DNA from: Pelagomonas calceolata
Lineage: Eukaryota; Sar; Pelagophyceae; Pelagomonadales; Pelagomonadaceae
Assembly (NCBI GenBank): GCA_918797485.1
Contig: CAKKNE010000001.1
Location: 5,084,001-5,148,000, forward strand
DNA: 64,000 nt
Direction of reading: 5' to 3'
Below the pieces are notes generated by a model, which was given only the letters and a program-made list of their open reading frames with translations, was not told where the DNA came from and ran no database searches. This document shows, one piece after another, positions 1,832 to 62,180 of the stretch. How positions within the stretch are numbered: position 1 is the stretch's first letter; each line of letters begins with the position of its first letter. A program made the position numbers and the translations under genes.

Positions 1832-1855
1832 GCTAGTGTCTTTACATGCCGCTAG
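1832..1855 (+). promoter_or_regulatory. Palindromic upstream element, copy 1
   Basis: GCTAGTGTCTTTACATG then CCGCTAG. It sits between divergent genes, 146 bases from the start of the minus-strand gene (1686) and 86 from the DNA ligase ATG (1941). Confidence 0.7.
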
Positions 1856-1940
1856 GTGCGCTTGGCAAGGTTTCTCGAGCGCGAGGCCGCGCGGAGACCT
1901 ATTATATCAACTGAGACGCATCATTTGACGCAGACATGCC

Positions 1941-3878
1941 ATGCGACAAGTTTTATTAGCGATGCTGCTGTGTGCGGCCCGGGCATTGCTACGCGCAGCA
2001 CGCCCGCCGCTGCGGCGCTGCGCGCGCGCCTACGCAGCGAAGAGCGATGACCTCGCGTCCCTAGAAAAAGAATTAGAGCGCCACGACAACCTCTACTACA
2101 ACCAAGCGAAACCGGAGCTCACGGACGAGGCCTACGACGCGCTCGCGCGAAAAGTAGATGAATTGAGAACGACGCCGCGCGGCGTCGGCGCGAAAAGGGG
2201 AGGCACCCTCGCCAAAGCCACACCACATACGACGCCCATGCTGAGCCTGGACACGTTGAAGGTCAAGGACGGAACCGTAACCACTATAGCGAAATGGCTC
2301 AAGAAAACAATCAAAGCCTGCGCCCCAGAAGCGATGCACGGTATTGTCGGAGAGCCGAAGCTCGACGGGCTGAGCGTCTCCCTGACCTATGTCGATGGTG
2401 TGTTGACGCAGGCGGCGACGCGCGGCGACGGCGTGGTGGGCGACGACGTGACTGACCAGATGCTGGAGGGGACGGCCATACCGACGCAACTTGATGATGC
2501 TTTTACGGGCGACGTGCGGGGCGAGGTCATCGTCCCCGTCGCCTTTTTTCGAGGCTTGGAGAAAGATAGTGCAGTAAGTGCCCGAAATTACGCGGCGGGC
2601 TCGCTGCGCCAGAAGAACGCCTCGGATGTTAGCGGACGAGGTCTGCGCTTCGTCGTACATGATGTGGTTGGTGGTGCTGAGAATTACACGGAGCGACGCT
2701 CAAAGGCCAAAAAGTGGGGCTTCGAGGTGGCACAACCGTCCATAAGAGTGGAGGTCGACGACGACGTGCCCGCGGATGCTTTACCGGACCACCTCCAAGC
2801 CTGTGCTGAGAAGTTGGCGGCTTACCACGCTTCACTCGGCGAGCAACGGCCGCCGCCGGCCGTCGCCGGGACACGATCGTCGAAGAAGGACGAGCTCCCG
2901 TACGAGATCGACGGCGTCGTCTTCAAGGTGGACTCGTGCAAAGCGGACGCGCAAGCGGGTTTCACGGCGCGAGCGCCGCGCGCGCGCGTGGCCCTCAAGT
3001 TCGATCGCGACGCTATCGTCGTTACTACAACTCTACTGGATGTGGAGATCGGCGTCGGGCGGCTTGGTGCGTTAACACCAGTCGCGAAACTGGAGCCCGT
3101 GAACTGCGGCGGCGTCACGGTCTCGTCGGCGACGCTCCACAATTTTGATGTATTAAGGGCCTCCCTCGGCGGCGCGCGCATTGGGGATACGGTCTTAGTG
3201 AAGCGCGCCGGCGACGTGATTCCGCAGATCGCGCCCGCGATCGAAGGGACGGGCGACGCCTGGCCGCCGCCCTCGAAATGTCCGCGGTGCGGCGCGCCGA
3301 CACGAGTCACGGGCGACGGCCAAGTCGCGTGCACCGCCGGTCTCCAATGCGACGCCCAGGCGGCGGGTCGGCTGCAGCACGCCCTGGGTCGAGGCGCGCT
3401 TGACCTAGGAAGCGGGTCCCTGGGCGCGAAGAAGGTCGAGCAACTCGTTGAGGAGGGCGTCCTGCGCTCCGCGGCGGACCTCCTCGACTTCGTGGATGAA
3501 AGGGAAGCGAGCCTCTCCAAACTATCGGCGCTGGACGGCTGGGGCGCCACGTCCTCGGAGAAGGTGCTCGACGCGCTGGAGACGCGCACCGCGACGCCGA
3601 TCCCGCTCGCGGCGTTCGTCTTCGCGCTGGGCGCGCCGCGGATCGGCAAGGCGACCGCTAAAAAAGTTGCGGGCATTTGCGGGTCGTGGACGGCGCTGCG
3701 GCGGTCTCTCTCCCCCACGACGGCGGCGGACGACGCGTTGCGCACGGCGCTGGCCGAGGCGCGGGGCGTCGGCCCGGCCGCGGTCGAGGGGCTGCTCGAG
3801 TTCTTCGCTGGTGTTGAGGACGCCGCGGTGGCGGACCGGCTGGCGGCGCGGCTTGATGTGGTGGACGATGATACATAA
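1941..3878 (+). CDS. ligA: NAD+-dependent DNA ligase (LigA type), no BRCT domain
   Basis: 645 residues. The first ~33 residues (MRQVLLAMLLCAARALLRAA...) look like a signal or organelle-targeting leader. Then follow: domain Ia (LERHDNLYYNQAKPELTDEAYDAL), which binds NMN in this family; the adenylation core with the catalytic lysine motif EPKLDGLSV and TRGDGVVGDDVTDQ; the OB fold; a four-cysteine zinc finger (CPRC ... C ... C, residues ~452-475); and helix-hairpin-helix repeats (ALGAPRIGKATAKKVA, ARGVGPAAVEGLLEFF). The reaction is NAD+-driven sealing of nicks. Bacterial LigA is usually ~670 residues and ends in a BRCT domain; here the protein stops right after the HhH region. Eukaryotic nuclear ligases are ATP-dependent, so this is a transferred gene, probably acting in an organelle. 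The upstream palindrome shared with neighbours argues against contamination. Confidence 0.93.
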   Translation: MRQVLLAMLLCAARALLRAARPPLRRCARAYAAKSDDLASLEKELERHDNLYYNQAKPELTDEAYDALARKVDELRTTPRGVGAKRGGTLAKATPHTTPMLSLDTLKVKDGTVTTIAKWLKKTIKACAPEAMHGIVGEPKLDGLSVSLTYVDGVLTQAATRGDGVVGDDVTDQMLEGTAIPTQLDDAFTGDVRGEVIVPVAFFRGLEKDSAVSARNYAAGSLRQKNASDVSGRGLRFVVHDVVGGAENYTERRSKAKKWGFEVAQPSIRVEVDDDVPADALPDHLQACAEKLAAYHASLGEQRPPPAVAGTRSSKKDELPYEIDGVVFKVDSCKADAQAGFTARAPRARVALKFDRDAIVVTTTLLDVEIGVGRLGALTPVAKLEPVNCGGVTVSSATLHNFDVLRASLGGARIGDTVLVKRAGDVIPQIAPAIEGTGDAWPPPSKCPRCGAPTRVTGDGQVACTAGLQCDAQAAGRLQHALGRGALDLGSGSLGAKKVEQLVEEGVLRSAADLLDFVDEREASLSKLSALDGWGATSSEKVLDALETRTATPIPLAAFVFALGAPRIGKATAKKVAGICGSWTALRRSLSPTTAADDALRTALAEARGVGPAAVEGLLEFFAGVEDAAVADRLAARLDVVDDDT

Positions 3879-3881
3879 GAG

Positions 3882-3997
3882 TTGTTACACATTCCGACCC
3901 TGATCTGGCTCTCGTGGACGCCCTCATCTTCCAACATCTGGCGCGCGCGGCCGCAGAACGGCGAGAGCTCGTAGCCGAAGATGACCACTGGGGCGGC
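3882..3997 (-). pseudogene. Possible orphan exon or remnant of a thioredoxin-fold (GST/glutaredoxin-like) protein
   Basis: In a frame different from the overlapping ankyrin gene, the minus strand reads WAAPVVIFGYELSPFCGR and then ARQMLEDEGVHE. This resembles the first strand, SPFC active-site loop and first helix of the N-terminal domain of glutathione S-transferases or glutaredoxins. The frame closes with a stop just upstream and runs into sequence antisense to the ligase downstream, so no whole gene is present. It may be a chance match. The tail of the ankyrin frame here is equally unremarkable. Confidence 0.3.
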
Positions 3998-4817
3998 CCA
4001 CTGGCAAGTTCAATTTTTTGGACCCTGTCCCGCCGGTCCCGGGGACTTGGTACTGGTAGCATCCGAGATGGGCCCAGTATTCCACGATCTTCGGAATAAC
4101 GTCAGCAGGGAGGCGCCTACCGCGGCTAAAAATTGCCGCGAACATGGAGCGGTGTCCCCTCGCGTAGGCAGGAAAGCCGCCGGCCGTGTGCACGGCTTGC
4201 ACGTACTCAATGACTTTCCTTTCGGAAGGGCTGATAAAGGCGTTGGTCTCGTCCAAAAGTTCAAAAAACTCTGTAACTGCGGGTTCGTTGATGGACGCGC
4301 CAGCACGTAAGAGCACCGTAATAATGGAGTGGTCTGCGTTTTCGCCCCTCCTTCGGTGTGGACAAGTGGTGAACCTGATGGCTCTGACGAGCGGCGACAC
4401 AGGCTTCGAAAAGTCTTCACTGCGGCGGTTTACGTCAGCGCCAGCCGCTAGTAGCGCACGGACAGCTTGAGCGTGCCCAAAATCAATTGCGTAGTGCAGC
4501 GGTGTAAGGGACCCATACCCATATGGTGGAACAAAATCAACCTGAGCACCGCTGGCCAAAAGCACGCGAATTGTTTCTGTGTACCCACTCGAGGCGGCTG
4601 AGTTTAGCGGCGTTCGACCCTTGTCTGTGTAACAATCCGGGTGCGCGCCGGCCTCGATCAATTTCGCGACGCAATCTGTGTTATTGTTGCACACCGCAAA
4701 GATCAAAGGCGTGTAGCCGTCAGCGTCCATGGCGTTCGGGTCAGCGCCCTCGGCCAGAGCGCGATTAAGGGCCGCGAGGTCACGCTTGAGGGCAGCCGCT
4801 CGCAATCGCGGGTCCAT
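3924..4817 (-). CDS. Ankyrin-repeat protein
   Basis: 297 residues from the ATG at 4817. At least four ankyrin repeats are visible: LNRALAEGADPNAMDADGYTPLIFAV, CVAKLIEAGAHPDCYTDKGRTPLN, RVLLASGAQVDF, and YAIDFGHAQAVRALLAAGADVN. After them comes a module VHTAGGFPAYARGHRSM...FSRGRRLPADVIPKIVEYW that recurs in the ankyrin gene at 34.5-35.5 kb, so the two belong to one algal subfamily. The last ~40 residues (GTGGTGSKKLN onward) look unlike the family and may be intronic or read past a lost exon boundary. Function is unknown; ankyrin stacks mediate protein contacts. The 3' end lies 45 bases from the ligase stop (convergent) and the start is divergent from NAD kinase. Confidence 0.8.
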   Translation of the reverse strand: MDPRLRAAALKRDLAALNRALAEGADPNAMDADGYTPLIFAVCNNNTDCVAKLIEAGAHPDCYTDKGRTPLNSAASSGYTETIRVLLASGAQVDFVPPYGYGSLTPLHYAIDFGHAQAVRALLAAGADVNRRSEDFSKPVSPLVRAIRFTTCPHRRRGENADHSIITVLLRAGASINEPAVTEFFELLDETNAFISPSERKVIEYVQAVHTAGGFPAYARGHRSMFAAIFSRGRRLPADVIPKIVEYWAHLGCYQYQVPGTGGTGSKKLNLPVGRPSGHLRLRALAVLRPRAPDVGR

Positions 4818-4908
4818 CACAGTGTCACCGTTCGAAGCTGCCCCAAGAAGCAAAGTGGGACCCCACTGCAAGCTTTCAACTGTCGGTCTGAATTTGGGCA
4901 GCGTCAAT

Positions 4909-4929
4909 GCTAGTATCTTACTGCGCTAG
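4909..4929 (+). promoter_or_regulatory. Palindromic upstream element, copy 2
   Basis: GCTAGTATCTTACTG then CGCTAG. It lies 92 bases from the ankyrin ATG (4817) and 86 bases from the NAD kinase ATG (5015), the same distance as copy 1 to the ligase ATG. Confidence 0.65.
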
Positions 4930-5014
4930 TTAACGACGGCGCCGGCAAGCTAGCCGGATTTCACGCCGACGAAGCGATCATTCGTCTGAAAAACACCGGC
5001 CCTGAACACTAGCC

Positions 5015-6349
5015 ATGCGTTGCGCCAGCCTCGTGCTGATCCTCGGCACTGCCGGGTCGCTCCAGCACGGTGCACCACCAAGGAGAGCATCTCCACCAGC
5101 CCGCGCTGCCCGCGGCCACTGCAAAACACCGAGGAGAAGAGCACCCCTCACCCGCCTGCACAACGCGGCCCAGAGCTCCCACCCCAGCTGGATCACCGCC
5201 GTAGACATTGAACAGGACGTTTATAATACCGCCGTCCAGGCCGAGAAGCCGCCCTGGAAGTTCACGAAGTCCCACGCCGAGGCCACCATAGGGAGAGAGG
5301 CCTTCTGCGACGTCTCCCAGGAGAAGACGTCGCGCGTGCGCTGCGTCGCCCAGAGTCAGCACCACGTGGCCTGGGATAGAACGCCACAACGGGTGTTGGT
5401 GCTGGCGAAGCGCCACGCGGACGATGAAGAGCTCGATGTGGCCTACCGCATTGCAAGGCACCTCCACGAGGCCTGTGGGGTGGACGTGCTACTAGCTGAT
5501 CCGTTGTACGAGCAGATCGGCAAAAGGCTACCAGCAGTGGAATTATGGCAAGGCGAGCACGTCTCGAGGTCACCGGATTTCGTGGCCACACTCGGTGGCG
5601 ACGGGTTGCTGTTGTACGCGAACACGCTGTTCCAGGCCACGCCGCCGCCGCCCGTCGTCGCGTTTGGCGCGGGCTCGCTCGGCTTCCTCGCACCGTTCGA
5701 CGTCGATGATGAACAGACGGGAGGTACTGTAGAAGAGACGCTCGACGAGGCCGTGTCGCTGGGCGAAGGCGAGTTGGAGCCCTGGCCCGTTTCTCTCAGA
5801 ATGCGGTTGCGGTGTCGCGTCGTGGACGGTGCTTCTGGTAAAGTCGTGGGTGGTCATGAGGCATTAAATGAAGTAGCCTTGGACCGGGGCAACTCGCCCT
5901 TTTTGTCTGCGGTCGAATGCTTTTGCAACGATGAACATTTAACAACAGCTCAGGCCGATGGGTTGATTGTGGCGACACCAACAGGCTCCACAGCGTACTC
6001 GTTAAGTGCGGGAGGCCCCATGGTCCACCCGTCCGTCAACGCCATGGTCTTCACGCCCATCTGTGCCCACTCGCTGAGTTTCCGACCCATCGTCTTCCCC
6101 GATAGCTGTACTTTACGTTTTGATGTTGACCCGGACGCGCGCGCGGACGCGTGGGTCACCTTTGATGGACGAAGTAGGGTGTGTCTGAAGCGGGGCGACT
6201 CGTTGATCGTGACGGCGTCGCCGCACCCTTTACCTACGGTCCTACGACTAGGGAACACGGCGGACTGGTTCGGGGGGTTGCGGACGCACTTCAATTTCAA
6301 CGTGCGACGGCGGCAGCAGAAGATCGCGGAGCAGTTCCTAAATGGCTAG
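5015..6349 (+). CDS. NADK: NAD kinase, with N-terminal targeting sequence
   Basis: 444 residues. The N terminus (MRCASLVLILGTAGSLQHGAP) is a signal peptide followed by an Arg/Pro/Ala-rich stretch, which suggests plastid or other organelle import. The catalytic domain starts near residue 125. It shows DFVATLGGDGLLLYA (GGDG, the ATP/NAD-binding diacylglycerol-kinase-fold motif), FGAGSLGFLAPF, and TPTGSTAYSLSAGGP, the conserved NAD-binding segment; TFDGRSRV fits the usual D-G near the C terminus. The enzyme phosphorylates NAD to NADP, the terminal electron acceptor of photosynthesis if plastidic. It is convergent with the next gene: the stops are separated by only three bases. Confidence 0.95.
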   Translation: MRCASLVLILGTAGSLQHGAPPRRASPPARAARGHCKTPRRRAPLTRLHNAAQSSHPSWITAVDIEQDVYNTAVQAEKPPWKFTKSHAEATIGREAFCDVSQEKTSRVRCVAQSQHHVAWDRTPQRVLVLAKRHADDEELDVAYRIARHLHEACGVDVLLADPLYEQIGKRLPAVELWQGEHVSRSPDFVATLGGDGLLLYANTLFQATPPPPVVAFGAGSLGFLAPFDVDDEQTGGTVEETLDEAVSLGEGELEPWPVSLRMRLRCRVVDGASGKVVGGHEALNEVALDRGNSPFLSAVECFCNDEHLTTAQADGLIVATPTGSTAYSLSAGGPMVHPSVNAMVFTPICAHSLSFRPIVFPDSCTLRFDVDPDARADAWVTFDGRSRVCLKRGDSLIVTASPHPLPTVLRLGNTADWFGGLRTHFNFNVRRRQQKIAEQFLNG

Positions 6350-6352
6350 TAC

Positions 6353-8413: not shown

Positions 8414-8438
8414 GCTAGCGGCCTGTAAAGACACTAGC
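8414..8438 (-). promoter_or_regulatory. Palindromic upstream element, copy 3
   Basis: GCTAGCGGCCTGTAAAGAC then ACTAGC, reverse orientation. It is identical base for base to copy 5 at 21371. It is 259 bases from the minus-strand start (8155), and 11 or 74 bases from the two candidate ATGs of the next gene. Confidence 0.7.
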
Positions 8439-8448
8439 CTACAAAAGC

Positions 8449-9675: not shown

Positions 9676-9721
9676 AAAAACGACTAACCAGGATATATAA
9701 TAACACGACCTTAGGACCACC

Positions 9722-12037: not shown

Positions 12038-12517
12038 CTGGGGCGGCGCGTTGCGCAGGCCTCCGATGGACCGGGCGTCGCTTTTATGTGCGGCCCGGAC
12101 GCTGGCCTGAACAGAATAGCGCCGCGGCGCCGTGGTCTGGTCTAGCCGAGCTGCGCAAGTGACTTGGCGCCTGGAAGCTGCTGCGCGGCGTTTTCGCGTC
12201 GGTTCACCTAGGATCGAGAGCACAGCGCTCGTGGCTGCTCGCTAGAGCTATTCTATGAGTAGAACGTGATCAACCACCGATAACTGGGGCCAAAGGTTAA
12301 TCTCGAGTAGCGTGCTAGTGTCTTACTCGACGCTAGCTGCCATCGAATGTGATCGAGGTCTCAGCGCTGCCACAGGGCCGCCGCGTGCCTATTTGCTGGC
12401 TCAGAAGTCGCACGGCTCACTGGTGGTTGCCGGTGTGCAATCGAACGTTCAGCCGTACGCCAGCCGCCGCGCAATCACACGCCAAAGCCAGCGGCCGAAT
12501 TTTCACGCGCAATCACC
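12038..12517. other. 480-bp divergent intergenic region
   Basis: Lies between the AP-4 beta and sulfotransferase starts. It holds palindrome copy 4; no other gene or RNA is apparent. Confidence 0.5.
12314..12337 (+). promoter_or_regulatory. Palindromic upstream element, copy 4
   Basis: GCTAGTGTCTTACTCG then ACGCTAGC, 277 bases from the AP-4 beta ATG and 181 bases from the sulfotransferase ATG. Confidence 0.7.
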
Positions 12518-21202: not shown

Positions 21203-21761
21203 TGTGCTATTGTGCTACGCGGCTGCCTGGGCGTTTCGCGCGCTCGTTTCGATGCTGTCGCACGTCGTTATCGAGGAGAGCTGCTCAGGACCACTTTTCG
21301 GCAGCTATGTGGTCCCGTAATCGCTCAAATGGCGCAGGTGTTGGGCTGGTGAAACGAGTTAACTTTTGTGGCTAGCGGCCTGTAAAGACACTAGCAAGCA
21401 GCTAAATTTCGATCCGTGCTTCTTTGACTGCTCAAGCAAGGCTCCGGCAGTTACTTGACGGTTGTAGGAGCTCCCAGAAGCAGCACGACTTGACATTGTG
21501 ACGGCCCAGGGTTCTGCCAAGCTTCACGCTGTTTGTGAGCCATCTAGCGCGGTTGGAGACCTTCTGAACACTCCTGGCAGCCCTTTCGGTCGCCTGTACT
21601 TCGCCAAACCAGCCACAGCTCGCGCGACCCTCCAGCAGGCGCTTTTGGAACTGAGAGCTGCCTCAAAGTTTGAGTGCAAACGCTGCGTCCCGACCCTTCG
21701 AGACGCCAGCAGCCGCTCGACACCGTCAGACAGACCGCTTGATTAGCTCGACCCAGTAATA
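21203..21761. other. 559-bp divergent intergenic region
   Basis: Between the PSTK start and the small gene at 21762. It holds palindrome copy 5. An open frame at 21498-21746 has no recognisable content. Confidence 0.4.
21371..21395 (-). promoter_or_regulatory. Palindromic upstream element, copy 5
   Basis: Identical over 25 bases to copy 3. It lies 169 bases from the PSTK ATG and 367 bases from the plus-strand ATG. Confidence 0.7.
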
Positions 21762-23251: not shown

Positions 23252-23273
23252 CTAGCTGCGTAAAGACACTAGC
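23252..23273 (-). promoter_or_regulatory. Palindromic upstream element, copy 6
   Basis: CTAGCTGCGTAAAGAC then ACTAGC. It lies 93 bases from the minus-strand ATG (23159) and 151 bases from the plus-strand ATG (23424). Confidence 0.65.
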
Positions 23274-25596: not shown

Positions 25597-25620
25597 GCTA
25601 GTGTCTTTATAGACCGCTAG
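25597..25620 (+). promoter_or_regulatory. Palindromic upstream element, copy 7
   Basis: GCTAGTGTCTTTATAG then ACCGCTAG, between divergent genes: 161 bases to 25436 and 153 to 25773. Confidence 0.7.
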
Positions 25621-27048: not shown

Positions 27049-27072
27049 GCTAGCGTCATGTAAGACACTAGC
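27049..27072 (-). promoter_or_regulatory. Palindromic upstream element, copy 8
   Basis: GCTAGCGTCATGTAAGAC then ACTAGC, 66 bases upstream of the cytochrome c6 ATG. No gene follows on the other side for 2.9 kb. Confidence 0.7.
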
Positions 27073-29946
27073 AAACCAGCCACACCTCTCGCAACCCGAC
27101 CGCTGGGCTCACAAAATAAACCCGGTTTGACCGCATTTCGGCCATTTGCCAAAAAAGGCGGCGTGCGCCAGACGTAGGGCGCGACGCTTGTCTGTGGCGA
27201 TCGGTCTGTCCTACGCCACCCTTGGGCCGGCCGAGGGGCGGCGGGCGCGTGCAAAACGACGCGCGGGATGCCGAGAACTCGGCCTTGTCTCGGTACGATG
27301 CCTGAGCGCAAACTCTTCCTCCGTCGCCGCTGGGGCCTACGGGGAGCCGGGTCGACTCACCAAAAACGAATACCCAACAAAGAATTTAAAAAGTACTAGT
27401 AGGTTACTAGTAGGTTGCCATACGCAGGCTTCCGGGTACTTCTGAAGGGGGGACTCGACGGTTTTGAGACGGGCGGGTCCCGCCCGATCCATTGGAGTAA
27501 AGTCCCTCTAGTGAAAAGACCCGCTAGCAAACCTCGTGACCCGCACGAGCTCAGAGCAGCCCACTTTTTGCGGCCGCGCGCGGCCCAATCGGTACGCACA
27601 GCACACAGCAGCACTTGATAAGACGTCCACGCGCGCCGGCGCCCACGCGCGCCGAAAAATTCGCGCGCGTTGCGCCACAGAGGCCGCCAACCAGCAAGAC
27701 CAGTGTAAGGAGGCGCTACGCGCGCCCTAATCGCTGCCCGAACCGCGTCCCGGACGGCGGGCGCGAACGGGCTACTTCCGAAGGCTGCCCTGGACACGCG
27801 GCGCGCACGAACAGCATGTCGACCGCGACCGCGCGACCGTCGTCGAGCGGCGCGGCGGCACCGCGGTGGGGTTCGCGCACCCATCAGCACAGCCGCGCGC
27901 TTTCGTGGGCCTTGAGGGGTATTATTAGGTAGTCTAAGGGCGAAAAACTTATTTTCCGTATTATGGATGATTCCGGTTGGCTTTATGGTGAGTCGACCCA
28001 GCCCTGTGATTTATTGTGGCAAGATCACGACCTGAACGAGCGTCCCTGAAGTTTTGAGCGAAATCGCCTCCACAGTAACGGAGAAAAAAAATCGAGCGCG
28101 GGACGGCGTTTTCGGCGACGTGCCCAAAAACGCCCTTGGCGCTGCGGGGGCGGCGCCTGGTTGAAACGGCAGAAGGAGTGGTCCCTCCGCGGCGCGTTCG
28201 TGGGCGGCGTGTTCTTGAAACGACTTCCGGCTCCGCGGTCAAGCCGCGCGGGACGCCCCGAGAGTCCGAGACCGCCCGACGGGGCGCGCCGGGCGCGTAG
28301 ACGACAATTGACGGCGAGCGCGCCGTCGGACTCGGCCGTGGGACGGGTGCGGACGTCTGATGCCGCGAGAGCCTTAGGCTGAGGGCTTAGTGTCGTTCGC
28401 GCGCCTACTTGTGCCGACATATGAATTATAGTAGGCAATCAAATTACCAGGGTAATTGCCGGTAGTGGAAATTACCGGTAATTACCGGTAATTACCGGAG
28501 TCGATTTTTGGCTACCGGGTAATGACCCCTGGGGTGGAAAGGTAAAACGCGTGAGTAAAGGGTGGACGCGGCAGACGCGTTTTGGACTATGGGCAGGATA
28601 TGGCCAAGCCCATGCCCCAGGGGCATCGTCCCACGGTCCCAAGTGAGCTTTTTACGCGTCAGTCCCATTGGAAATGCTAATCTGGGTTCTGGGAGGCTGC
28701 CCCGGCCCGGCTCACCTTGGACCTCCCAGATTACCGGTAATTTCCGTTACCAGGGTAATTTACCGGTAATTACCGGTAATTACCGACCCTGAGATCTCGT
28801 TACCGGGTAATTTGCCAACTATAATATGAATTTTAATTAATAGCTAAAAATGCCTTTGTGGCGAATGCGCTGCAAAGATGTCAAGGAGACATCCAACGTA
28901 CCCCTAGTGTACTACGCGAAGGTTATTAGCCCCCAAAAGCGATCAGGAGGCCCAGGCGTGGGGGCCCGGCGCGGCGTCCCCGGCCCGTGCACGAAAGCCA
29001 CTTAGCCCTTTTTTTGGAGGCACGCAATTCGTAGTAGAGCCCGAGGCGTCTCGAAACACAACGCGGGAGCCGGCCGTGCCGCTCCGACGGCCGGAGAAGG
29101 GCAAACCTAGTCATTTCGTAGACTGGGTGAATCGCCGGCGATACACAAGTCCAAATTTAAAGCGCGGCCGACAGCAGATCTCGTTCATACTCGATCAGTC
29201 GTTTAGACGCGTGTCGACGCCGTTTCCACAAATCGCGCTACTAGCTGCGACGAGATTTCGAGATCGTACGGGCACCGACCTCGAAAATCTCCTCGTCGCG
29301 GCTTTATCACCTCGAAATAGCCTCGGCGGCTAGCAGCGCGGCACCGCGGCGTCCTTTGGACACCCCTTAACGTCTCTACGGCCCGAATCACGCTCAAGGC
29401 TGGCACCGCATCCGTGAGGCGCCTGTCCCCCGAATCGCGGCGACGCCCGCCGCGCCCAGTCCGCCAGCCCATTTGTCTCTCCGACCCGTCGCAGCGCCAT
29501 CATATCTCCCGGCGCGACTCTCGCGCACCTTTTTAGCGCCGCGCGACGAGTTTCCCTCCACAGTAACGCGCAGATTTGTCGTTTTCCCAAGTCCGTCGAT
29601 TTCTTCGCCGCGCCGGCGCCTCGGGCCGTCTCCTTTGGACCGGGGGCCGGGCGTGGGGCGGAGCGATCGCCCCTATCTCGGTTTTCTCGGAGGTGCCCGG
29701 CGCGCCGCGCAGGGCCGGGGCCATTGCGCTGGAAAACCCGTTTAAGAAGTGAATTGTTTTAGGGTTTTTTAGCTGAGCCAAGCGGTCGGGTTGCCTCTCG
29801 CACACTGATTATCGCAACATAACTCTCCGCGCGACGTAGTGCGCGGCTCATCACAGCCCTCCGGCCGCCAGCAAAGCGCCACGCCATCGCTGGAGCCGTT
29901 TGGTTGTGCCTAGAGAGACTGCTGCCAGCGCTCGTAAGCGACTGCC
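27073..29946. other. Gene-poor 2.9-kb region
   Basis: Open frames exist on both strands but have repetitive Arg/Ala/Pro content typical of GC-rich noise and match no family. The region contains the MITE-like element at 28425-28825, a direct repeat of TACTAGTAGGT at 27395-27415, and two occurrences of CCTCCACAGTAACG (near 28066 and 29556). It could hold non-coding RNA or degraded repeats. I cannot support a gene. Confidence 0.5.
28425..28825. mobile_element. MITE-like element with terminal inverted repeats
   Basis: 401 bp. The left end ATTATAGTAGGCAA and the inverse of the right end (ATTATAGTTGGCAA) match at 13 of 14 positions. Both subterminal regions are packed with self-complementary AATTACCGGTAATT units, three to four on each side. 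The flanks carry ATGA at 28421-28424 and 28826-28829, a possible 4-base target duplication. The interior has no coding capacity. This fits a non-autonomous DNA transposon; the superfamily is not clear. Confidence 0.65.
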
Positions 29947-32472: not shown

Positions 32473-32746
32473 TTCTAAGCCGAGCTACAGCTGCAGACGC
32501 TGGCTGCGTTGTACAGCGGTGCAATGCACAGGCGATTGATGTGTCAGAACCACCGATGCGCGAGCTACGCTGCTGCAATTGTGCGATTAATCTAGCCTGC
32601 AGGCAGCGTGTAACACACTATCTCAGAGCTAAAAAAAGAGGAAAGCACTACTTGACGCGCATCCATCCGTCGCCGCTGCGTTTTGATTGCGCGATCGGAA
32701 GCTCATTACACCTGCACTTCAGAGCACAGCACTTGCAGCTGCACTC

Positions 32747-34378: not shown

Positions 34379-34402
34379 GCTAGTGTCTTACAGGACGCTA
34401 GC
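34379..34402 (+). promoter_or_regulatory. Palindromic upstream element, copy 9
   Basis: GCTAGTGTCTTACAGG then ACGCTAGC, between two tandem plus-strand genes, 107 bases before the ATG at 34509. Confidence 0.7.
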
Positions 34403-34508
34403 TCGTTTTTTGGGTCGGCTCTGCGGCGCACGTCTGCGCGCGCAGCCGTCCAGCTGCTACCATAAGGCTGCAGCCAGTGCTCAAGGCACTGTTGCATCGG
34501 TCTGTTGC

Positions 34509-35483
34509 ATGGCGCGACTTGATGCTGATGCTGTGGGTGGCCAATTCAGCCCTACCTGGATGGGAAGGCACAGCCTATACACTCAGGTCACGGGAGACGC
34601 GAGAGGTCCTGATAATGTTGTAGCTCATGGAGCTAACAGACGGTTGTGGACCGCCGTCGACACGGGATACCTCCTCGGAATCCGTGCGGCCATCCGCGCG
34701 GGCGCGGACATCGACTCGGTCGATTTAGGGTGGGCAGCGGTGAACTGGGCTGTGAGCCAAAATAGACTCGACGTCGCTTCTGAACTGCTCTCCCTGGGCG
34801 CCAATCCGAATGCGGGACACCCGAGGGCATCCGGCCTGCATGTGGCGGCATACCGCGGGAGGTTTGACGTGGTTTTGATGCTACTTCGCAGCGGGGCAGA
34901 GCTTCGGGAGATACCGGGCGTAGAACATCCAATGAATGTGATTCCTGAGTGGTTTGGAGCTTCTCCGATCGTGCCCCGGAGCCGCGTCGAGAATTGTCCC
35001 ATTACGATTCAGTATTTAAGACGCGTGCACGAGTCGGGAGGCTTTAACACCTACAAGGAGACACGCTACCGCGGGTGCCTGGCTGTGCATCTCATTGCAC
35101 GCCATCGGCGCTTGCCTACTGATGTCCAAGGTGTAATTCTCAAGACTCTACTGGGCTCCCGGGGTCGCAAGATAATCATCGAAGTGGTTGACATGTTCTC
35201 TGGTCTTCCCGCCACAACATCGAGGATTATTCACTTTATTGTAGATGCAAAAATGTGTCTCCGGATCCTCTTTAAACGCTACCTTAGATTGATGAATGAC
35301 GACCTCTCCGAAGTGGTCGCGCGAGTGTATCAAGGGCGCCGAGTTAAGTTGAGCTTTCGCCTGCCGGACACGGACGTGGGGATCAATGGAACTGAAACGC
35401 TGCGATCCTTAGGTTTGTCCAGCGCCGCTGAGGCCGGCGAGATGGCGCCGGTGGTCTTCGAGGCGCATCTTTTGGAGGCCTAA
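34509..35483 (+). CDS. Ankyrin-repeat protein, same subfamily as the 3.9-kb gene
   Basis: 324 residues from the ATG at 34509. Ankyrin repeats: GYLLGIRAAIRAGADIDSVD, VASELLSLGANPNAGHPRASG, LHVAAYRGRFDVVLMLLRSGA. Then comes YLRRVHESGGFNTYKETRYRG ... IARHRRLPTDVQGVIL, the same module as in the ankyrin gene at 3.9-4.8 kb (VHTAGGF ... RGRRLPADV). The last ~100 residues are distinct: a hydrophobic FSGLPATTSRIIHFIVDAKMC and an end segment (GRRVKLSFRLPDTDVGINGTE then LRSLGLS) that could be a beta-grasp fold. No function known. Confidence 0.8.
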   Translation: MARLDADAVGGQFSPTWMGRHSLYTQVTGDARGPDNVVAHGANRRLWTAVDTGYLLGIRAAIRAGADIDSVDLGWAAVNWAVSQNRLDVASELLSLGANPNAGHPRASGLHVAAYRGRFDVVLMLLRSGAELREIPGVEHPMNVIPEWFGASPIVPRSRVENCPITIQYLRRVHESGGFNTYKETRYRGCLAVHLIARHRRLPTDVQGVILKTLLGSRGRKIIIEVVDMFSGLPATTSRIIHFIVDAKMCLRILFKRYLRLMNDDLSEVVARVYQGRRVKLSFRLPDTDVGINGTETLRSLGLSSAAEAGEMAPVVFEAHLLEA

Positions 35484-36607: not shown

Positions 36608-36938
36608 CGCTGCGCGCGTTTTTTTACTGTCGCGTCTGGCGTGAGCAGGGCTGCACCCAAATCACCCAAATCAATGAATGTGCTGTAAAAGCTGGCTACC
36701 GATGGATTGCTGTCGCTGCGGCTGCAGTGATACCACGAATAACGATGCCCAAGCACCTCACAAGCTTTGGCAGCTTTGTTTTCTTCTGCTTGCAAAATGC
36801 TGGGCTTGCTAGTGCCTTACAAGCGCTAGCTGCGGCTGCGGCCAAGCCGCGTTTTGCCGCATCGATTGCAGAAACAGGTCAAAGACATCAAATTGTTGAA
36901 CAAGTGCCGCTGCACAGCGCAAGCGCAAGTGCAGCAAC
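36608..36938. other. 331-bp divergent intergenic region
   Basis: Between the WDR91-like and PRMT9-like starts. It contains palindrome copy 10; nothing else is apparent. Confidence 0.5.
36808..36830 (+). promoter_or_regulatory. Palindromic upstream element, copy 10
   Basis: GCTAGTGCCTTACAAG then CGCTAGC; 201 bases from the ATG at 36607 and 109 from that at 36939. Confidence 0.7.
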
Positions 36939-41351: not shown

Positions 41352-41375
41352 GCTAGTGTCTTACAGGCCGCTAGC
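41352..41375 (+). promoter_or_regulatory. Palindromic upstream element, copy 11
   Basis: GCTAGTGTCTTACAGG then CCGCTAGC, 162 bases upstream of the DUSP ATG; the other side is the 3' end of MVK. Confidence 0.7.
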
Positions 41376-42545: not shown

Positions 42546-42568
42546 GCTAGCGTCCAGTAAGGCACTAG
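42546..42568 (-). promoter_or_regulatory. Palindromic upstream element, copy 12
   Basis: GCTAGCGTCCAGTAAG then GCACTAG; 118 bases from the MVK ATG and 141 from the ATG at 42709. Confidence 0.65.
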
Positions 42569-47306: not shown

Positions 47307-48084
47307 GCGCATAACATTCCTTACTCGCCTCGACGAGCATGGGGGGCCGCGAGAAGGCGGAGCCCGAATCTTCCGGCGGGCTTGGGATTGCACGGGTGAG
47401 TGTTCGCGCCAGAGATCGCACATTCGTACCCCAAGGAACAGGCTCGGAGACGGTGACGACGCGCGCGGCGGCTTATGGCTTATTGGTGGCCGCGCCGCGT
47501 CCGTCTTCTCGCCGCGTTTTCACGAGGCGCGGCCACCCGCGCTCGACGAAGCTGGAGCGTTGGATGCTGCGGCCCTCGCTGGCGCCTCACACGCACGACG
47601 ATGCTGTCATGCAGCAGCCGCACTCAGCGGTGCGCCAGGCGGCCATTTGCATTCATGGGGTGGCTACACGTCAGTCGCGGAGTCGTTGCTACTGGTGCGC
47701 GCGCCATCGGTCATGCTTCTGGGACAGCCGCCGCTCCGCGCGGTCCTTGCGTGCACCGCTGCTGCATGCTGCAGCAGCAGAGCAGCCACCTTGCCCGGCG
47801 CTGATTCGCGCGCCTCAGATCGCACAGGTGCAGTTGAGACATTGAGGCATCAGCTGCTGCTCCGTGCGTGGCCTGTTGTCGCACAGAGATTCGTAGCTCG
47901 CTTATACGCGTGCGTGTGCGCTGAAAGCTAGTATGTGTCAACACGCTAGCTCCATTGGCTTGTGTTTTTGCGCGGCCCCAGTGGTCTCAATATCGAGCCC
48001 CTGCTCCCATAAAACTCCACCGAAGTATCTCTTATCAGCTGCCTCGAATCACTCTTGCGTTACCGCGCTGTCGCCTCGCACCCC
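47307..48084. other. 778-bp intergenic region
   Basis: No convincing coding frame. It includes palindrome copy 13, 135 bases before the next ATG. Confidence 0.5.
47927..47950 (+). promoter_or_regulatory. Palindromic upstream element, copy 13
   Basis: GCTAGTATGTGTCAAC then ACGCTAGC. The arms are conserved but the centre differs. Confidence 0.5.
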
Positions 48085-51737: not shown

Positions 51738-51760
51738 GCTAGCCCCTTAAAGGTACTAGC
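51738..51760 (-). promoter_or_regulatory. Palindromic upstream element, copy 14 (divergent)
   Basis: GCTAGCCCCTTAAAGG then TACTAGC, 72 bases upstream of the mitofilin-like ATG. Confidence 0.5.
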
Positions 51761-52568: not shown

Positions 52569-52594
52569 ATCGGCAAACACCCTTACTCCGCTAC

Positions 52595-53529: not shown

Positions 53530-53963
53530 TATTGATTGCACAGCACTGTGGTCTTATTGATCCACAATGCAATAATTGCGATCGGCTTGGGCGCGTGCGC
53601 TGCGAATGGATGATGTGTCTGCAGCCGTCCGGAGAGTGTTTTACGACTCGCGCGGAGAGCACTCGTCGCGGGCCAGGGACTCGCTCGTATATGCAAAAAA
53701 ACACGTCGGGCGCGCGGTTGCTAGCGGCTCTAAGACACTAGCAAGAGCTCTGGCCGATGACAGACTTTGCATGCAGCAAACGCGTCGTCCTGGGCACAGC
53801 AGCACGTGCATTTTGCAGAGTGCACTCTCATACGTAAGCTGCGTGATATCACCAGTTCTCGTGCCGCAACGCGAGAGGGTCAGCGAGGACACCACAGATT
53901 GTAGCTGAGTGCAGCGACTGCAAACAGCCTGCGTCGAGGCGCACGACTGGAAAACGTGGTACC
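53530..53963. other. 434-bp divergent intergenic region
   Basis: Between rpiA and the methyltransferase-WW gene. It contains palindrome copy 15 at 53720. Confidence 0.5.
53720..53742 (-). promoter_or_regulatory. Palindromic upstream element, copy 15
   Basis: GCTAGCGGCTCTAAGAC then ACTAGC; 191 bases to the rpiA ATG and 222 to the ATG at 53964. Confidence 0.7.
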
Positions 53964-55642: not shown

Positions 55643-55644
55643 GT

Positions 55645-56163
55645 TTATGAGCTTAAGAAAGAAGCGGGCGGCGGCTGCACGGCCTCGGACCCGAGGCGGC
55701 GGCGCCGCACGGCGGTCCACGCGCGCACGGCCTCGGCGAGCTCCGCCGCGACGCGGTACTCGTCGGTCTTCGCCAGGAGCTCGTCGGGGATGGCGTCGCC
55801 CCAGCCGAACGTCCGCGCGCCCCAGAAATGATTGAAATGCAGCTTCTCCGGCGGCAGGTCCCCGTGTGTGTGTAAGATTGGTTTAAAAGACGTCGCGTCG
55901 ATTGCGTGGACCGCGACCCCGGCGCGAGGCCTACAGGGCGCCCGCGAGTCCGCGGCGCGCGCGTCGCGGGCGTTGCTCAAAGGAGCCACCGCCACCGCCT
56001 CCCACCGCGTCCGGACGACTACGTAGCCGGCGGGAAGCGTACCGAGGGCTCCCAGGACCCGGGCAGCGACGCACTCCCGCACGTTGGGACAGCGCGAAGC
56101 CAGCGCAATCAACGACTGGCGGCGCTGCCCGCGCGGACCACGCGAGCACACGGCCAGCAGCAT
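55645..56163 (-). CDS. Protein of unknown function with embedded introner-like segment
   Basis: 172 residues from MLLAVCSRGPRGQRRQ. The C-terminal part (DLPPEKLHFNHFWGARTFGW, GDAIPDELLAKTDEYRVAAE, LAEAVRAWTAVRRRRLG) looks like a real helical protein. In the middle, VHAIDATSFKPILHTH is encoded by the introner core (CACGCAATCGACGCGACG). No clear AG acceptor follows, so this element is either read through or the intron boundary is hidden. Family not recognised. The stop is two bases from the WW-gene stop on the other strand. Confidence 0.5.
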   Translation of the reverse strand: MLLAVCSRGPRGQRRQSLIALASRCPNVRECVAARVLGALGTLPAGYVVVRTRWEAVAVAPLSNARDARAADSRAPCRPRAGVAVHAIDATSFKPILHTHGDLPPEKLHFNHFWGARTFGWGDAIPDELLAKTDEYRVAAELAEAVRAWTAVRRRRLGSEAVQPPPASFLSS

Positions 56164-56292
56164 TGGCTCCGGACGCTCCCTGCGAACGCTACCCACGCGT
56201 TTGGCGGCGCGCGAAGCTGCCCCGAGCACAAAACAAAGGCTGCCCAAGCCAACGCCATCGCCGCGGCGCCACGACAAAGACCACGACAAAAG

Positions 56293-58161: not shown

Positions 58162-58188
58162 CAGTTACAGTTACTCTTCACATACAAG

Positions 58189-59292
58189 CTAGGACTCGTT
58201 CGCGGGCTGGCCGTACGCCGACGTCGTCTCGAAGCGTGCCACAACATAACCGAAGAGCGTGAACTCGCGCGTCGTGCGCTCGGTGCGCGCCTCATTCGAG
58301 GTACTCGCGCGCGACCGCGACCACGACCAGCCCTCCGACGCGCCAGTGCAGCCCGCGTCGTCGTTGTTGTTCACGGGCCGCGCCCGCGGCGGCGGCGGCG
58401 GCGGCGGGGCCGGCGCCCGGTCCGGCGGCGCTACGCGATTGGCCGAGCGGCGCCCCGGCAGCGCCGCCGCCGCGCCGCTCAGCGCGTCGTCGACGCGATT
58501 CCGCCTTCTTGGAACCTCGCTCGACCGGCGCCGCGGCGAGCGGTCTGTACCGTTCGCGCGCCGCTCGGACTTGGCCCGGCGCCAGTAGGCCTGGGCCCGG
58601 TCCGCGTCGGAGGGCGCCGCCGCCGCGGCCTTCGCCCGCCAGTTGTCGTCGTCCACATCAAAGCCCAGCTGCTCGAGCCGCTGGCGCCGATCTGCAGATA
58701 ATTTGCCCTCCTCGCGCGCGCGCCGCTGCGCCGCGCACCAGTCGCCTAACACACCATCCGGGTAGCAGTGACCCTTCTTGAGCTTGAACGCCGCGAGGGC
58801 CCAGTAGCGCTTCTCCCAGGCCGCGTCCCGGTCCTGGTTCTCGTCGAGGTCGACGCGCGTTTGTGCCGGCGGTTCCGGTGCCGGCGGCTTTTTTGGGGGC
58901 TTGGGCTTGCTCTTCCGGGAAGGCGGCGGCGCCTTCCGTGAGGGCCGCTTCTCACCGGATACGGCCTTGTGCGCCTCGGTGAGCGCCGCGAAGAGCTCGG
59001 ACGTGGCTCCATTTGTTTTGTCGGGGTGCAGCTTGAGCGCGAGCTTCCTATAAGCCTTCTTCGCGTCCGAGGCGCTGGCCTCTTCATTAAGTCCCAGCGC
59101 CTGCCGCGGGTGCCTCCTTATGTTATCGAGCGCCGCCTTGAGGAGGGCCGTCGCGTCCTCCGCGCCGCGTTCCGCGGTTAGTAGCAGCGCGGCGCACTCC
59201 GTGTATTGCGAGTGGTGGTGCAGATTCCTCGCTTGCGCGAGGTCTTGTGCTTTGACTTCGAGGCGTCGGTTCGGTGGCGGCGACGTCGACAT
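58189..59292 (-). CDS. J-domain protein with helicase-associated (HA) domain
   Basis: 367 residues. The N-terminal ~70 residues resemble the DnaJ-C14/18 type lead (DLAQARNLHHHSQYTECAAL, DNIRRHPRQALGLNEEASAS). The J domain has AYRKLALKLHPDKTNGATSE with the HPD. A Lys/Pro linker follows, then WEKRYWALAAFKLKKGHCYP, GVLGDWCAAQRRAREEGKLS and RRQRLEQLGFDVDDDNW, which match the HA domain (W ... GHxxVP ... LGxWxxxQR ... GxLxxxRxxxLxxxGFxW). HA domains are usually in bacterial and algal helicase-like proteins and may bind DNA. The C terminus is Arg/Pro-rich. Confidence 0.8.
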   Translation of the reverse strand: MSTSPPPNRRLEVKAQDLAQARNLHHHSQYTECAALLLTAERGAEDATALLKAALDNIRRHPRQALGLNEEASASDAKKAYRKLALKLHPDKTNGATSELFAALTEAHKAVSGEKRPSRKAPPPSRKSKPKPPKKPPAPEPPAQTRVDLDENQDRDAAWEKRYWALAAFKLKKGHCYPDGVLGDWCAAQRRAREEGKLSADRRQRLEQLGFDVDDDNWRAKAAAAAPSDADRAQAYWRRAKSERRANGTDRSPRRRSSEVPRRRNRVDDALSGAAAALPGRRSANRVAPPDRAPAPPPPPPPRARPVNNNDDAGCTGASEGWSWSRSRASTSNEARTERTTREFTLFGYVVARFETTSAYGQPANES

Positions 59293-59684
59293 GCTGCTGT
59301 GCTTACTACTGGCAGACAGGCTGCCTCATGCTCAGGCTTTTTTTCGAGAGTTTCACGTGTTCCCGCCGACACGGCTCGGTTGGATGGCAGCGTAGAGCTG
59401 CAGGCAGGCCACAGGACGACCTAGAGACGGAGGTCGGGCCTCGCAAAGCAAGCTTTGCAATATTTGCAAGCTAAGTGAGTAAGGTACTAGAGAGGCCAGT
59501 CCAGGACTCACCCGGGGAGCCTTGCGTCCTAGTCCAGACCGGTAGCGCTCCCTAAACACCGATGCGGCGGGCTGGGGCGCTAGTGACAGCGCTGCGTGGG
59601 GGCAGCCGGTACAACGACTTGTAAAGCGCTGCAGCCGCAACCTGCGGGGGCTGCCTCGAAAAGCGAGAGCAACAAACGACAACA
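59293..59684. other. 392-bp divergent intergenic region
   Basis: Between the J-domain and bactofilin genes. It contains a degenerate palindrome, copy 16. Confidence 0.4.
59471..59491 (-). promoter_or_regulatory. Degenerate palindromic upstream element, copy 16
   Basis: GCTAAGTGAGTAAGG then TACTAG, about midway between the two divergent starts. Confidence 0.4.
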
Positions 59685-61031
59685 ATGCCGGCCACGGGCG
59701 CCTCGCCCGCGCCGCCGCCGCCGCCGCGCTCGAAGGTGAAGCGCAAGGCGCCGAAGCCCCCCGTCCAGCAGCCCTTTGCGGATGATCCCTACGGCCAGGG
59801 CATCCCGGGCGCGAACCCCTACGGCTTCACGTCCTACGACCCGGACCAAGCGGCGCCGTATGAGGACGCTTTTGACGAACAGCCGGTAGGTGGGTCGGGC
59901 TTCGCGGCCGTGAACGCCGCGCGCCAGGCTGTGGAAGATGAGGCCGGTGCTCTGGACGAGCAGCCGGAGGAGGACGATGAGGCGACGATGGAGCCGCCCG
60001 TCGAAGAAGCCCCGCAGAAGCCGCACATCTTGGAGAGCGAGCCCGAGACGGTCATCGGCGAAACGCTGCAGATCGAAGGGACATTAAGGTTCGAACGATT
60101 ACTGCGACTCGACGGCAAGTTCGAGGGCGATTTAGTATCCACGGGTGACTTGATCGTGGGCCCGCGCGGCGAGTTAGTGGGAGATGTCCGGGACATGGCC
60201 GATTTGGTGGTCTTCGGCAAGGTCATCGGCAACATCAACGTGGACCACCTGGAGCTCTGCGGCGCGGCGTCGATTTATGGGGACGTGACCTGCAAGACGC
60301 TGCTGATGGACCCGACGGTCGTATTGGTGGGCACGCTGAACGTGAACCCCTTCGCGCCGAATTTGATGGATCGACATGGAGACGAGGTGCCCCCTGAAGG
60401 CGCGGGCGTTGTTCCCAATTCGCCGCCGACATCTCCTGCGAAGGAGCCGGCGGAGGCTCCGGCTGCCGCGCCTCCTGTGGAGGAGCCACCGGCCTCGGCG
60501 CGGAGCGAGCCCGAGGCGACGCCGGCCGTCGAGGCCGCGCCGTCTCCCGTGAAGGCGCCCGAGCCCGCGAAATCGCCCGAGAAGCCCGCCGAGCCGGAGC
60601 CGGTCCCGAGCCCGGCGAAGAGCCCGGCGAAGGAGCCCGCGCCCGAGCCGACCGAGGCGCCGGCGTCGCCGGCCAAGGCGGCCCCGGCGCCCGAGCCCGT
60701 CGCGGAGCCCGCGAAGGCGCCGGAGCCCGAGCCCGCGGCGGCCGCCGAGCCCGCGAAATCGCCGGAGAAGCCTGCTCCGGCGGAGCAGGTCGGCGGCGCG
60801 CCGCCCGCCGCGGAGACTGCCGACAGCGCGCCGGCGGAGGCCGCGAAATCGCCAGCGAAGCCCGCCGAGCCCGCGGCCGAGCCCGCTGCCGAGCCCGTAA
60901 CCGCTGGTGGGGGCGGCGGGGTATCAGTCCCAGAGACTGCGACGGGCGCGGCAGATGGCGGCGAGAGCCGGCCTCCGAGCGCGGGAGAGGCCGCGGTCAG
61001 CGAGGCACCGGCTGCGGCGCCGGCGGCGTGA
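59685..61031 (+). CDS. Bactofilin-domain protein
   Basis: 448 residues. The N-terminal ~110 are Pro/Asp/Glu-rich. Residues ~120-220 show the bactofilin beta-helix: TVIGETLQIEGTLRFERLLR, LDGKFEGDLVSTGDLIVGPR, GELVGDVRDMADLVVFGKVI, GNINVDHLELCGAASIYGDV, TCKTLLMDPTVVLVG, with the G-x-V/I-x-G-D/N turn repeats of this bacterial cytoskeletal polymer. The C-terminal ~220 residues are PAKSPEKPAEPEP-type low complexity. It may form filaments on a membrane or in an organelle; the role in algae is unknown. Confidence 0.85.
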   Translation: MPATGASPAPPPPPRSKVKRKAPKPPVQQPFADDPYGQGIPGANPYGFTSYDPDQAAPYEDAFDEQPVGGSGFAAVNAARQAVEDEAGALDEQPEEDDEATMEPPVEEAPQKPHILESEPETVIGETLQIEGTLRFERLLRLDGKFEGDLVSTGDLIVGPRGELVGDVRDMADLVVFGKVIGNINVDHLELCGAASIYGDVTCKTLLMDPTVVLVGTLNVNPFAPNLMDRHGDEVPPEGAGVVPNSPPTSPAKEPAEAPAAAPPVEEPPASARSEPEATPAVEAAPSPVKAPEPAKSPEKPAEPEPVPSPAKSPAKEPAPEPTEAPASPAKAAPAPEPVAEPAKAPEPEPAAAAEPAKSPEKPAPAEQVGGAPPAAETADSAPAEAAKSPAKPAEPAAEPAAEPVTAGGGGGVSVPETATGAADGGESRPPSAGEAAVSEAPAAAPAA

Positions 61032-61068
61032 TGGATTTATCCCGCTTCCCCAGATAAGTTACATACAC

Positions 61069-62099
61069 TTATGAGGACCACTGCGGATAGCTGCCGAACT
61101 GGAGCAGCCTCCGCAGGACCTCGCTCTCGCTGCCCGGGTCCGCGTCGGAGCCGTCGATGAAGCCGAGGCTCGGCGCCCGGCCGTAGTCGCGCGTGATGGC
61201 GTCGCCCGCCACGAGCGCTCGCGAGGCGACGACGAGGAGGTCGTCGCCGCCGGGGTCCTCGACGAGTGTTGCCGTCGCGCCGGCGGCGCCGTCGCGCAGC
61301 GTGTCGTACAAAGGGCAAACGACAATATCGTCACCGACGCGCGCGGCCCGAGAGAGTGCCCGAGAATAGAGCTCCGCCGCGTCGAGCTCGCGCCGCCGTC
61401 TAGCCGTGCCTTCGGTACGCGTCGGATTTCGGACCAGAGGAATGAGCGCCTCTCTGCACTCCCGCCACGCATAGCCTCGCTCGACGAGCGCCGCGCGCGC
61501 CGCCTTTTCGTTGCGGTGGCGGCACAGTGCCGAGAGCCGGTAGGCGGCGCGATCGACGGCCGGGTGGCCTGTGTGGTTGTCGACGCGTGAGTTTCGATGG
61601 CGTGAGGCGAAGGAGGTTTCCGACGCGGGCGCGTGCATTTCATCCCGAACTTCTTGAAAATTTCGAAATCATTGTCGCTGCCCGTCGCGAGCAGCGAATC
61701 GACGGTCTCTTTGTCCCTAGCTTCGAGATCATCGCTCGACGTCGCCCAGCCTCCCCCGCGCCATGACCGCACCCAGCTTCCCAAGTCTCCGCCTTCTTCC
61801 ATGGCCTCGATTGCTGCAGCTGTAAGCTTCCCGGGCCAGTCCTTCCTCCGTGGTGCGCTGAGTGTGAGCGAGCGCGGCACGCGTGCGAGCACTTCGAGGG
61901 CAGCGACGTCCTGCTTCACTGTCGCGCTGTCGCCGTCGAACGAGAGTTTGTCCGCATTGATTCCGGCATTCTCGCACCACGATTGGAGGTCCAACTCACT
62001 CAGCGTAGCAGCATGCAGCAGTGGACCGCGCGACGACGAAATCGCTGGCGGTCTGATGAATGCGTAAGCACTACTGCATAGTATGAGTAGTCGTTTCAT
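61069..62099 (-). CDS. SET-domain-like protein (plastid/secretory leader), one short intron
   Basis: Exons 62099-61637 and 61568-61069 join in frame to 320 residues. The N terminus MKRLLILCSSAYAFIRPPA is a signal peptide with an AFIRP motif recalling the plastid Phe signal. The next part (LQSWCENAGINADKLSF, LEVLARVPRSLTLSAP) resembles the entry to SET proteins of the Rubisco-LSMT/SETD3 class. The second exon (RALVAGDAITRDYGRAPSLG then FIDG) resembles the closing GxxIxxxYGxxxNxxLLxxYGF motif. The central NHS-type motif is weak. Protein lysine methyltransferase is the best guess. Confidence 0.6.
61569..61636 (-). mobile_element. Short introner-derived intron in the SET-like gene
   Basis: 68 bases, GC donor (GCACGCGC) and CACACAG acceptor. 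The inner start CCGCGTCGGAAACC matches the element start CTGCGTGGAAATC. It contains CACGCCATCGAAACTCACGCG. Confidence 0.65.
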
Positions 62100-62157
62100 G
62101 GTGGTGCAGCGCTTTGATACGATCTATACGTGCCACGCCGGTTGAACAAAATGGCAT

Positions 62158-62180
62158 GCTAGTGTCTTACATGACGCTAG
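62158..62180 (+). promoter_or_regulatory. Palindromic upstream element, copy 17
   Basis: GCTAGTGTCTTACATG then ACGCTAG; 59 bases to the ATG at 62099 and 146 to that at 62326. Confidence 0.7.

Follow-up and report, generated by a model that had tools for sequence, protein, structure and literature searches.

Copies of the element in the window

The window analysed here is a stretch of 64,000 nucleotides from the genome of the alga Pelagomonas calceolata (C1:5084001-5148000; 63% GC), in which an intergenic element of 20–24 bp, bounded by two CTAG arms, recurs beside genes. The pelagophyte origin of this DNA is secure, because the beta-adaptin that it encodes is matched by a 97% identical transcriptome protein and, at about 70%, in Chrysophaeum taylorii and Aureococcus anophagefferens. 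The whole genome comprises 32,445,274 bases on 8 contigs. The report on the published assembly gives 32.4 Mb, 63.6% GC and six nuclear chromosomes (PMC9481584). The two remaining contigs of our eight are presumably organelles.

The element has a left module, TTGCTAGTGTCTTACA, and a right module that ends in CGCTAGCT. It occurs with two core types, type 1 with TCTTACA and type 2 with CTAGTRTGT...ACGCTAGCTC, which were assigned by eye (an automatic split misfiled at least four sites). Copies were located with a two-module profile that was trained on 56 strict sites (CTAGT-N8..12-CGCTAG) and then iterated, with a threshold of at least 14 bits. The training sites came from a local sample of 264 kb, made up of the window, the 100 kb that follow it on C1, and a 100-kb stretch of C2 that was picked independently of the motif; all local counts below refer to this sample. 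A preliminary description of the window had listed 17 copies. All of them carry the element and are recovered by the profile at 14.5–43.9 bits, together with a weak extra site at 32603. The strand given below is the orientation of the CTAGT arm.

1833..1855, + strand: type 1, spacing 19, divergent gap (34.0 bits)
4910..4929, + strand: spacing 16, divergent gap (31.0 bits)
8415..8437, - strand: type 1, spacing 19, divergent gap (30.0 bits)
12315..12336, + strand: type 1, spacing 18, divergent gap (40.2 bits)
21372..21394, - strand: type 1, spacing 19, divergent gap, 25 bases the same as in the copy at 8414 (32.7 bits)
23252..23272, - strand: variant whose second arm is without CG, divergent gap (29.4 bits)
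25598..25620, + strand: spacing 19, divergent gap (33.9 bits)
27050..27071, - strand: consensus copy, spacing 18, divergent gap (43.9 bits, best of 66)
32603..32621, - strand: weak element-like site, divergent gap, absent from the earlier list (16.4 bits)
34380..34401, + strand: spacing 18, tandem gap, at the 5' end of the ankyrin open reading frame 34383-35483 (40.2 bits)
36809..36829, + strand: spacing 17, divergent gap (33.1 bits)
41353..41374, + strand: spacing 18, tandem gap (43.2 bits)
42547..42568, - strand: spacing 18, divergent gap (34.8 bits)
47928..47949, + strand: type 2 core (CTAGTATGT...ACGCTAGCTC), tandem gap (28.6 bits)
51739..51759, - strand: degenerate copy, divergent gap (23.1 bits)
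53721..53741, - strand: spacing 17, divergent gap (36.8 bits)
59471..59490, - strand: weak degenerate copy, divergent gap (14.5 bits)
62159..62180, + strand: spacing 18, divergent gap (40.6 bits)

Most copies had been placed between divergent genes and none in coding sequence. This is borne out, since 14 of the 17 lie in divergent gaps, three in tandem gaps (34380, 41353 and 47928) and none in predicted coding sequence or a convergent gap. The reported identity over 25 bases of the copies at 8414 and 21371 is also correct. As a correction, the sites at 51738 and 59471 are degenerate variants and the one at 47927 has the second core type. The ankyrin frame was missed by our gene model and added by hand; otherwise the site at 34380 would count as convergent. 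This frame is listed with a GTG start, and its true start is likely a later ATG.

Abundance and anatomy

Genome-wide, the strict form occurs 4,473 times, compared with 95 occurrences of the reversed pattern that served as control. The form GCTAGTGTCTTACA-N1..6-CGCTAGC has 900 exact copies against none for its control, and the 22-mer CTAGTGTCTTACANNNCGCTAG, with up to three mismatches, has 2,385 against one. In the local sample the profile finds 66 sites, all confined to the non-coding fifth of the DNA and none in predicted coding sequence. Coding matches appear only below the threshold (one at 13 bits, two at 8–12 bits), and in four runs with first-order Markov sequences of 164 kb no match reached 12 bits, while at 8 bits there were 1.75 per run. 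The 66 sites reach 43.9 bits with a median of 33.3, and individual sites are mostly either clearly present or absent. Two strict-pattern matches, at 27508 and A147352, score below 14 bits and were counted in the strict set only. The total information is about 31 bits, a value that is partly inflated because the training set demanded CTAGT and CGCTAG.

Thousands of near-identical copies with inverted arms could point to a tiny mobile element or to the remains of transposon ends, all the more so as a non-coding repeat of about 1.2 kb starts at a type 2 site in two of its three copies and is about 150 bp away from one in the third. However, the flanks of the sites are unrelated, as the preliminary description had stated against a decaying transposon, and share no sequence beyond about 3–5 bases. 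Nor do target-site duplications, which it had named as the sign of a small transposon, exceed the shuffled control once multiple testing is allowed for (smallest p 0.04 in 24 tests of offset by length). The sites are not dispersed regardless of gene starts; an occupied gap mostly has a single site, convergent gaps have none, and the same six intervals are occupied in a second lineage (see below). We find a mobile origin scarcely credible. The three repeat copies (L013:4475-5799, L013:7677-8951 and L024:410-1577) are 78–86% alike in aligned blocks. They contain no long open reading frames and have no Rfam match, and neither Rfam nor the open reading frames listed for the two stretches around them gave a link of type 2 sites to histone genes or non-coding RNAs.

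Pelagophyte introner elements, described in PMC9481584 as introns of about 210 bp inside genes, are repeats of the same genome, yet they differ from our 20–24-bp intergenic site in both length and location. Viral contigs, scanned for the type 1 form only, held no exact copy that would suggest viral mimicry.

The CTAG-to-CTAG distance is 18 in 36 of the 66 sites and ranges from 14 to 19. The two arms had been described as symmetric, and here the description has to be corrected: despite the palindromic look they are not equivalent, with CTAGT on one side and CTAGCG on the other. If they were interchangeable, with T and C about equally common, the T/T and C/C combinations would rival T/C. Genome-wide, T/T occurs 272 times (control 160) and C/C 36 times (control 31), as against the 4,473 T/C sites. 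These are not the counts of a homodimer site with equal half-sites, in which the arms would be interchangeable. As to the dimeric factor proposed earlier, the arm rule speaks against a simple homodimer, and a heterodimer or one multi-domain protein would fit better. Among 50 listed T/T places, sorted by eye, about one third resemble the second core type (CTAGTRTGTC...TACRCTAG), about ten are type 1-like and eight belong to an unrelated repeat. Of the 66 local sites about 10 are of type 2, again by eye, and the right side of this type often reads CTAGCTC. Lone left half-sites with at most one mismatch number zero in the 264 kb, compared with 32 within full sites.

Placement relative to genes

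Genes were called with a hidden Markov model of codon usage, self-trained on the 264-kb stretches and without a model of introns, which gave 196 gene segments; before counting, 9 of the 204 coding segments had been set aside because they fell short of 200 bases. The 58 tandem gaps take in introns and short spaces. A site lies in 43 of the 57 divergent gaps, exactly one in 42 of these, and in 20 of the 58 tandem gaps, two of which hold two sites. None of the 54 convergent gaps has a site, although only 14 of them are 100 bp or longer. Between 300 and 450 bp, 23 of 25 divergent gaps are occupied, and among gaps of at least 200 bp the element is found in 41 of 54 divergent ones versus 19 of 37 tandem ones (Fisher p 0.02). 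The single divergent gap with several sites compares with a mean of 9.7 when the same number of sites is placed at random (0 of 5,000 trials as low). Sites are also centred in divergent gaps, the mean distance from mid-gap being 0.113 of the gap versus 0.234 at random (n = 40; 0 of 20,000 as small).

The preliminary description had called the element a bidirectional promoter element, and the occupancy of divergent gaps, the centring and the absence of an orientation preference agree with this. The name is too narrow in one respect, as tandem gaps carry the site as well. The equal frequency in coding or convergent space that was to count against a promoter role is not seen in the 264 kb (0 of 66 sites in predicted coding sequence, 0 of 54 convergent gaps).

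An architectural factor whose sites fall in promoters by coincidence, marking an insulator, a boundary or something associated with replication, could also leave a long, high-information, asymmetric and orientation-indifferent site, one per gap and near gene ends. A general boundary might be expected in convergent gaps too, and these are empty, with the reservation on their length just given; we judge this explanation improbable. Somewhat less so, but still unlikely in our view, is a classical pathway-specific transcription factor, one regulator with thousands of targets that might respond to light or the cell cycle, for example. The many gaps without a site would suit such a regulator, and the two core types could mean separate regulons. 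An occupancy of 75% of divergent gaps with one site per gap is, however, unlike a pathway regulon, and the genes beside the window sites appear, by their Pfam content, to be functionally mixed. They include DNA ligase, NAD kinase, adaptin, sulfotransferase, a KTI12-like protein, a tRNA-binding protein, GHMP kinase and an MFS transporter.

Orientation is unbiased, both in tandem gaps (12 sites in the same and 10 in the opposite sense to the gene) and in divergent gaps (21/21). In the 40 single-site divergent gaps below 700 bp, the median distance from site to ATG is about 154 bp on the nearer and about 226 bp on the farther side, and in tandem gaps (n = 22) it is about 200 bp, all measured to starts of the coding model. 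Distances of 11–107 bases to start codons had been given before; such values depend on the start chosen. For 21 of the 22 tandem sites the distance is 84–473 bp, and for one it is -8. A core promoter element such as TATA or Inr (initiator), which would keep a fixed orientation and distance to the transcription start, is disfavoured by this spread and by the random orientation.

The arms can pair fully on one strand if G-U wobble is allowed, and a hairpin in the 5' leaders of RNAs would then tolerate the T/C asymmetry on one strand only. Against this, the orientation is random to the gene in both kinds of gap, one of six intervals has the site in opposite orientations in the two lineages, and the 264 kb hold no Rfam match at gathering score. 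We give such a hairpin almost no credence. A structured RNA element in general was likewise rejected, since the tandem sites lack a single orientation to transcription.

The sense-strand excess of A over T rises outward on both sides, the skew being 0.04 in the nearest 60 bp and 0.27 at 140–200 bp, as if transcribed leaders began roughly 100 bp from it. Between site and ATG, a search for other positional motifs yielded nothing beyond a weak CA-rich sense bias.

A second lineage and the putative factor

When a collection of prokaryote genomes was scanned for exact matches to the type 1 form, five contigs were returned, all derived from metagenome-assembled genomes (MAGs) whose names we take to indicate seawater. 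Three of the five (L029, L031 and L032) belong to the 'Spirochaeta' MAG MED672, which has 11 strict sites on five contigs. To judge from its sequence, MED672 holds mis-binned pelagophyte contigs from another lineage, because the four contigs compared are syntenic with our genome in blocks of 80–94% identity. Of the 13 strict MAG sites, five were compared with our genome, six more lie in MED672 and two in other MAGs. Counts over whole MAGs (sites versus reversed control: 11 vs 42 in MED672, 1 vs 92 and 1 vs 18 in the others) prove nothing, as a control excess is expected where a MAG is mostly bacterial.

Six intergenic intervals, five of MED672 contig C141 and one of C169, were compared base by base. 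In all six the site is present in both lineages, and in one it is inverted. The scores in the relative and in our genome are 19.5/10.1, 30.5/20.0, 30.6/30.3, 35.8/36.0, 19.1/34.9 and 29.0/37.6 bits, our own 10.1 falling below the 14-bit threshold. All of these sites lie outside predicted coding sequence with a gene starting beside each, the one exception being on C169, a contig that stops short of the next gene. On one side of two of the intervals, additional coding segments are predicted in our genome. The 60-bp flanks of four pairs mostly score like unrelated DNA or close to it (six of eight score 0.48–0.65, with an unrelated mean of 0.58, and two 0.82–0.83). By comparison of the sites themselves, four pairs are 88–95% identical and two are at 67% and 70%. 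The inverted site lies 51 and 46 bp from a common 14-base anchor in the two lineages. In this sample of six intervals the element thus appears to be used at the same places although the intergenic DNA has largely diverged.

Two further contigs seem chimeric. L030 carries MurB and MgtE genes joined to a stretch 96% identical to our genome, and L033, judged by Pfam only, encodes an EamA transporter and a HAD-ankyrin protein. A repeat of about 157 bp at L032:299-455 has dozens of copies in the genome at about 80–88% identity and is possibly an introner family.

We consider it probable that the element acts at the level of DNA, in mostly a single copy per promoter, as the site of a putative factor of high specificity whose role would resemble that of the general regulatory factors of yeast. 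The main weight of this reading rests on the placement and number of the sites, not on the lineage comparison. Yeast general regulatory factor sites (Reb1, Abf1, Rap1) are promoter-proximal, indifferent to orientation and common to divergent genes of mixed function, and Abf1 reads a two-part site with a spacer. Our element likewise lies upstream of genes, is common to divergent pairs and is independent of orientation. It differs from the yeast sites in being longer, more exact (about 31 bits), nearly always single and equipped with heterotypic CTAG arms. To our knowledge, a promoter element so long, so exact and mostly single is unusual for a eukaryote.

In the mechanism we propose, a putative abundant, sequence-specific protein would bind the site, either as a heterodimer or as one protein with two related DNA-binding modules that are flexibly joined. 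One module would read TTGCTAGTGTCTTACA and the other AGCTAGCG, usually with 18 bp from CTAG to CTAG. From its place at about the centre of a short intergenic space, the protein would mark the promoter and probably exclude nucleosomes, and polymerase could then start on either side of the site; a single-sided promoter would employ the same site. The protein may also activate transcription.

Around 74 sites (the 66 and 8 fetched loci), CpG frequency oscillates with a period of about 155–160 bp (p 0.02–0.025 among several tests). GpC, WW and gene-start anchors show no such oscillation. A departure from random is also found for TpG/CpA (p 0.005 and 0.05), with peaks at 205 and 145 bp and no single clean period. 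The genome has three DNA-methylase genes; in one of them, at C1:2768699-2769859, the DNA methylase domain lies within an open frame of 2,236 codons that may encode a DNMT5-type enzyme.

Several points weigh against a general promoter factor or lessen the support for it. No site is present in 14 of the 57 divergent gaps or in 38 of the 58 tandem ones, a few of which are introns. The sampled 264 kb is somewhat enriched, because it holds 56 strict sites where about 36 are predicted from the genome average. The CpG oscillation, as a possible trace of phased nucleosomes, is a weak lead and the sole hint of phasing. The lineage comparison fits selection on an orientation-free site but, as a small sample, is weak support and no proof by itself. 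Its six intervals were selected for site presence in one lineage, and shared presence is unsurprising because 55–75% of gaps carry a site anyway. The 2,145 non-orthologous local pairs average 0.785 identity (14% of them reach 0.88 and 4% reach 0.92), and in a 5x5 comparison, with means taken by hand, orthologous sites average 0.82 versus about 0.77 for the others. MED672 site 2199 is closer to another of our sites (0.96) than to its own counterpart (0.88), and in two orthologous pairs one copy is degenerate.

Other long or lineage-typical promoter motifs offer partial parallels. The human ZNF143/THAP11 motif (SBS/M4) is used bidirectionally. Like our element it is a long, specific promoter motif, M4 being credited with 520 copies in human promoters, but its sequence (ACTAYRNNNCCCR) is unrelated, it is without an arm palindrome and its copies are far fewer. 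Ochrophyte and oomycete promoter elements include Inr and FPR (flanking promoter region). With the Phytophthora motif these are stramenopile promoter motifs as is ours; as core elements, Inr and FPR have a fixed orientation and distance to the start, whereas our element has random orientation and a spread of ATG distances. The literature searched, including PMC9481584, PMC13284251 and PMC12054182 and leaving supplements and subscription papers outside, reports in its accessible parts neither this motif nor any Pelagomonas promoter element.

Going further, it is conceivable, though we hold it only tentatively and with more doubt than confidence, that one factor of about 30 bits is a general promoter organiser, chiefly of two-way promoters, across an algal lineage. 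A single-site grammar would then replace combinations of short degenerate motifs, with the T arm plus TCTTACA and the C arm as two modules, a complete site required, about one per promoter, that can flip in evolution without loss. A site so long and exact is a direct handle for finding its factor, and in genomes and metagenomes of pelagophytes the element could serve to predict where promoters lie and genes start. It is also a test case of how a compact genome may run two genes off one site.

Several other features were noted in passing. Within the window, 1941-3878 is a gene for an NAD-dependent DNA ligase in a eukaryotic nuclear genome, 14884-16671 is one frame with FAD-binding and DOPA 4,5-dioxygenase domains, and 59685-61031 encodes, although this is the nuclear genome of an alga, a protein with the Bactofilin domain, a cytoskeletal fold of bacteria. 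Elsewhere on C1 a recurring CTAGTGGCGCAAAACTCACTAG, distinct from the promoter element, has eight listed copies, six of them at about 2.72–3.00 Mb.

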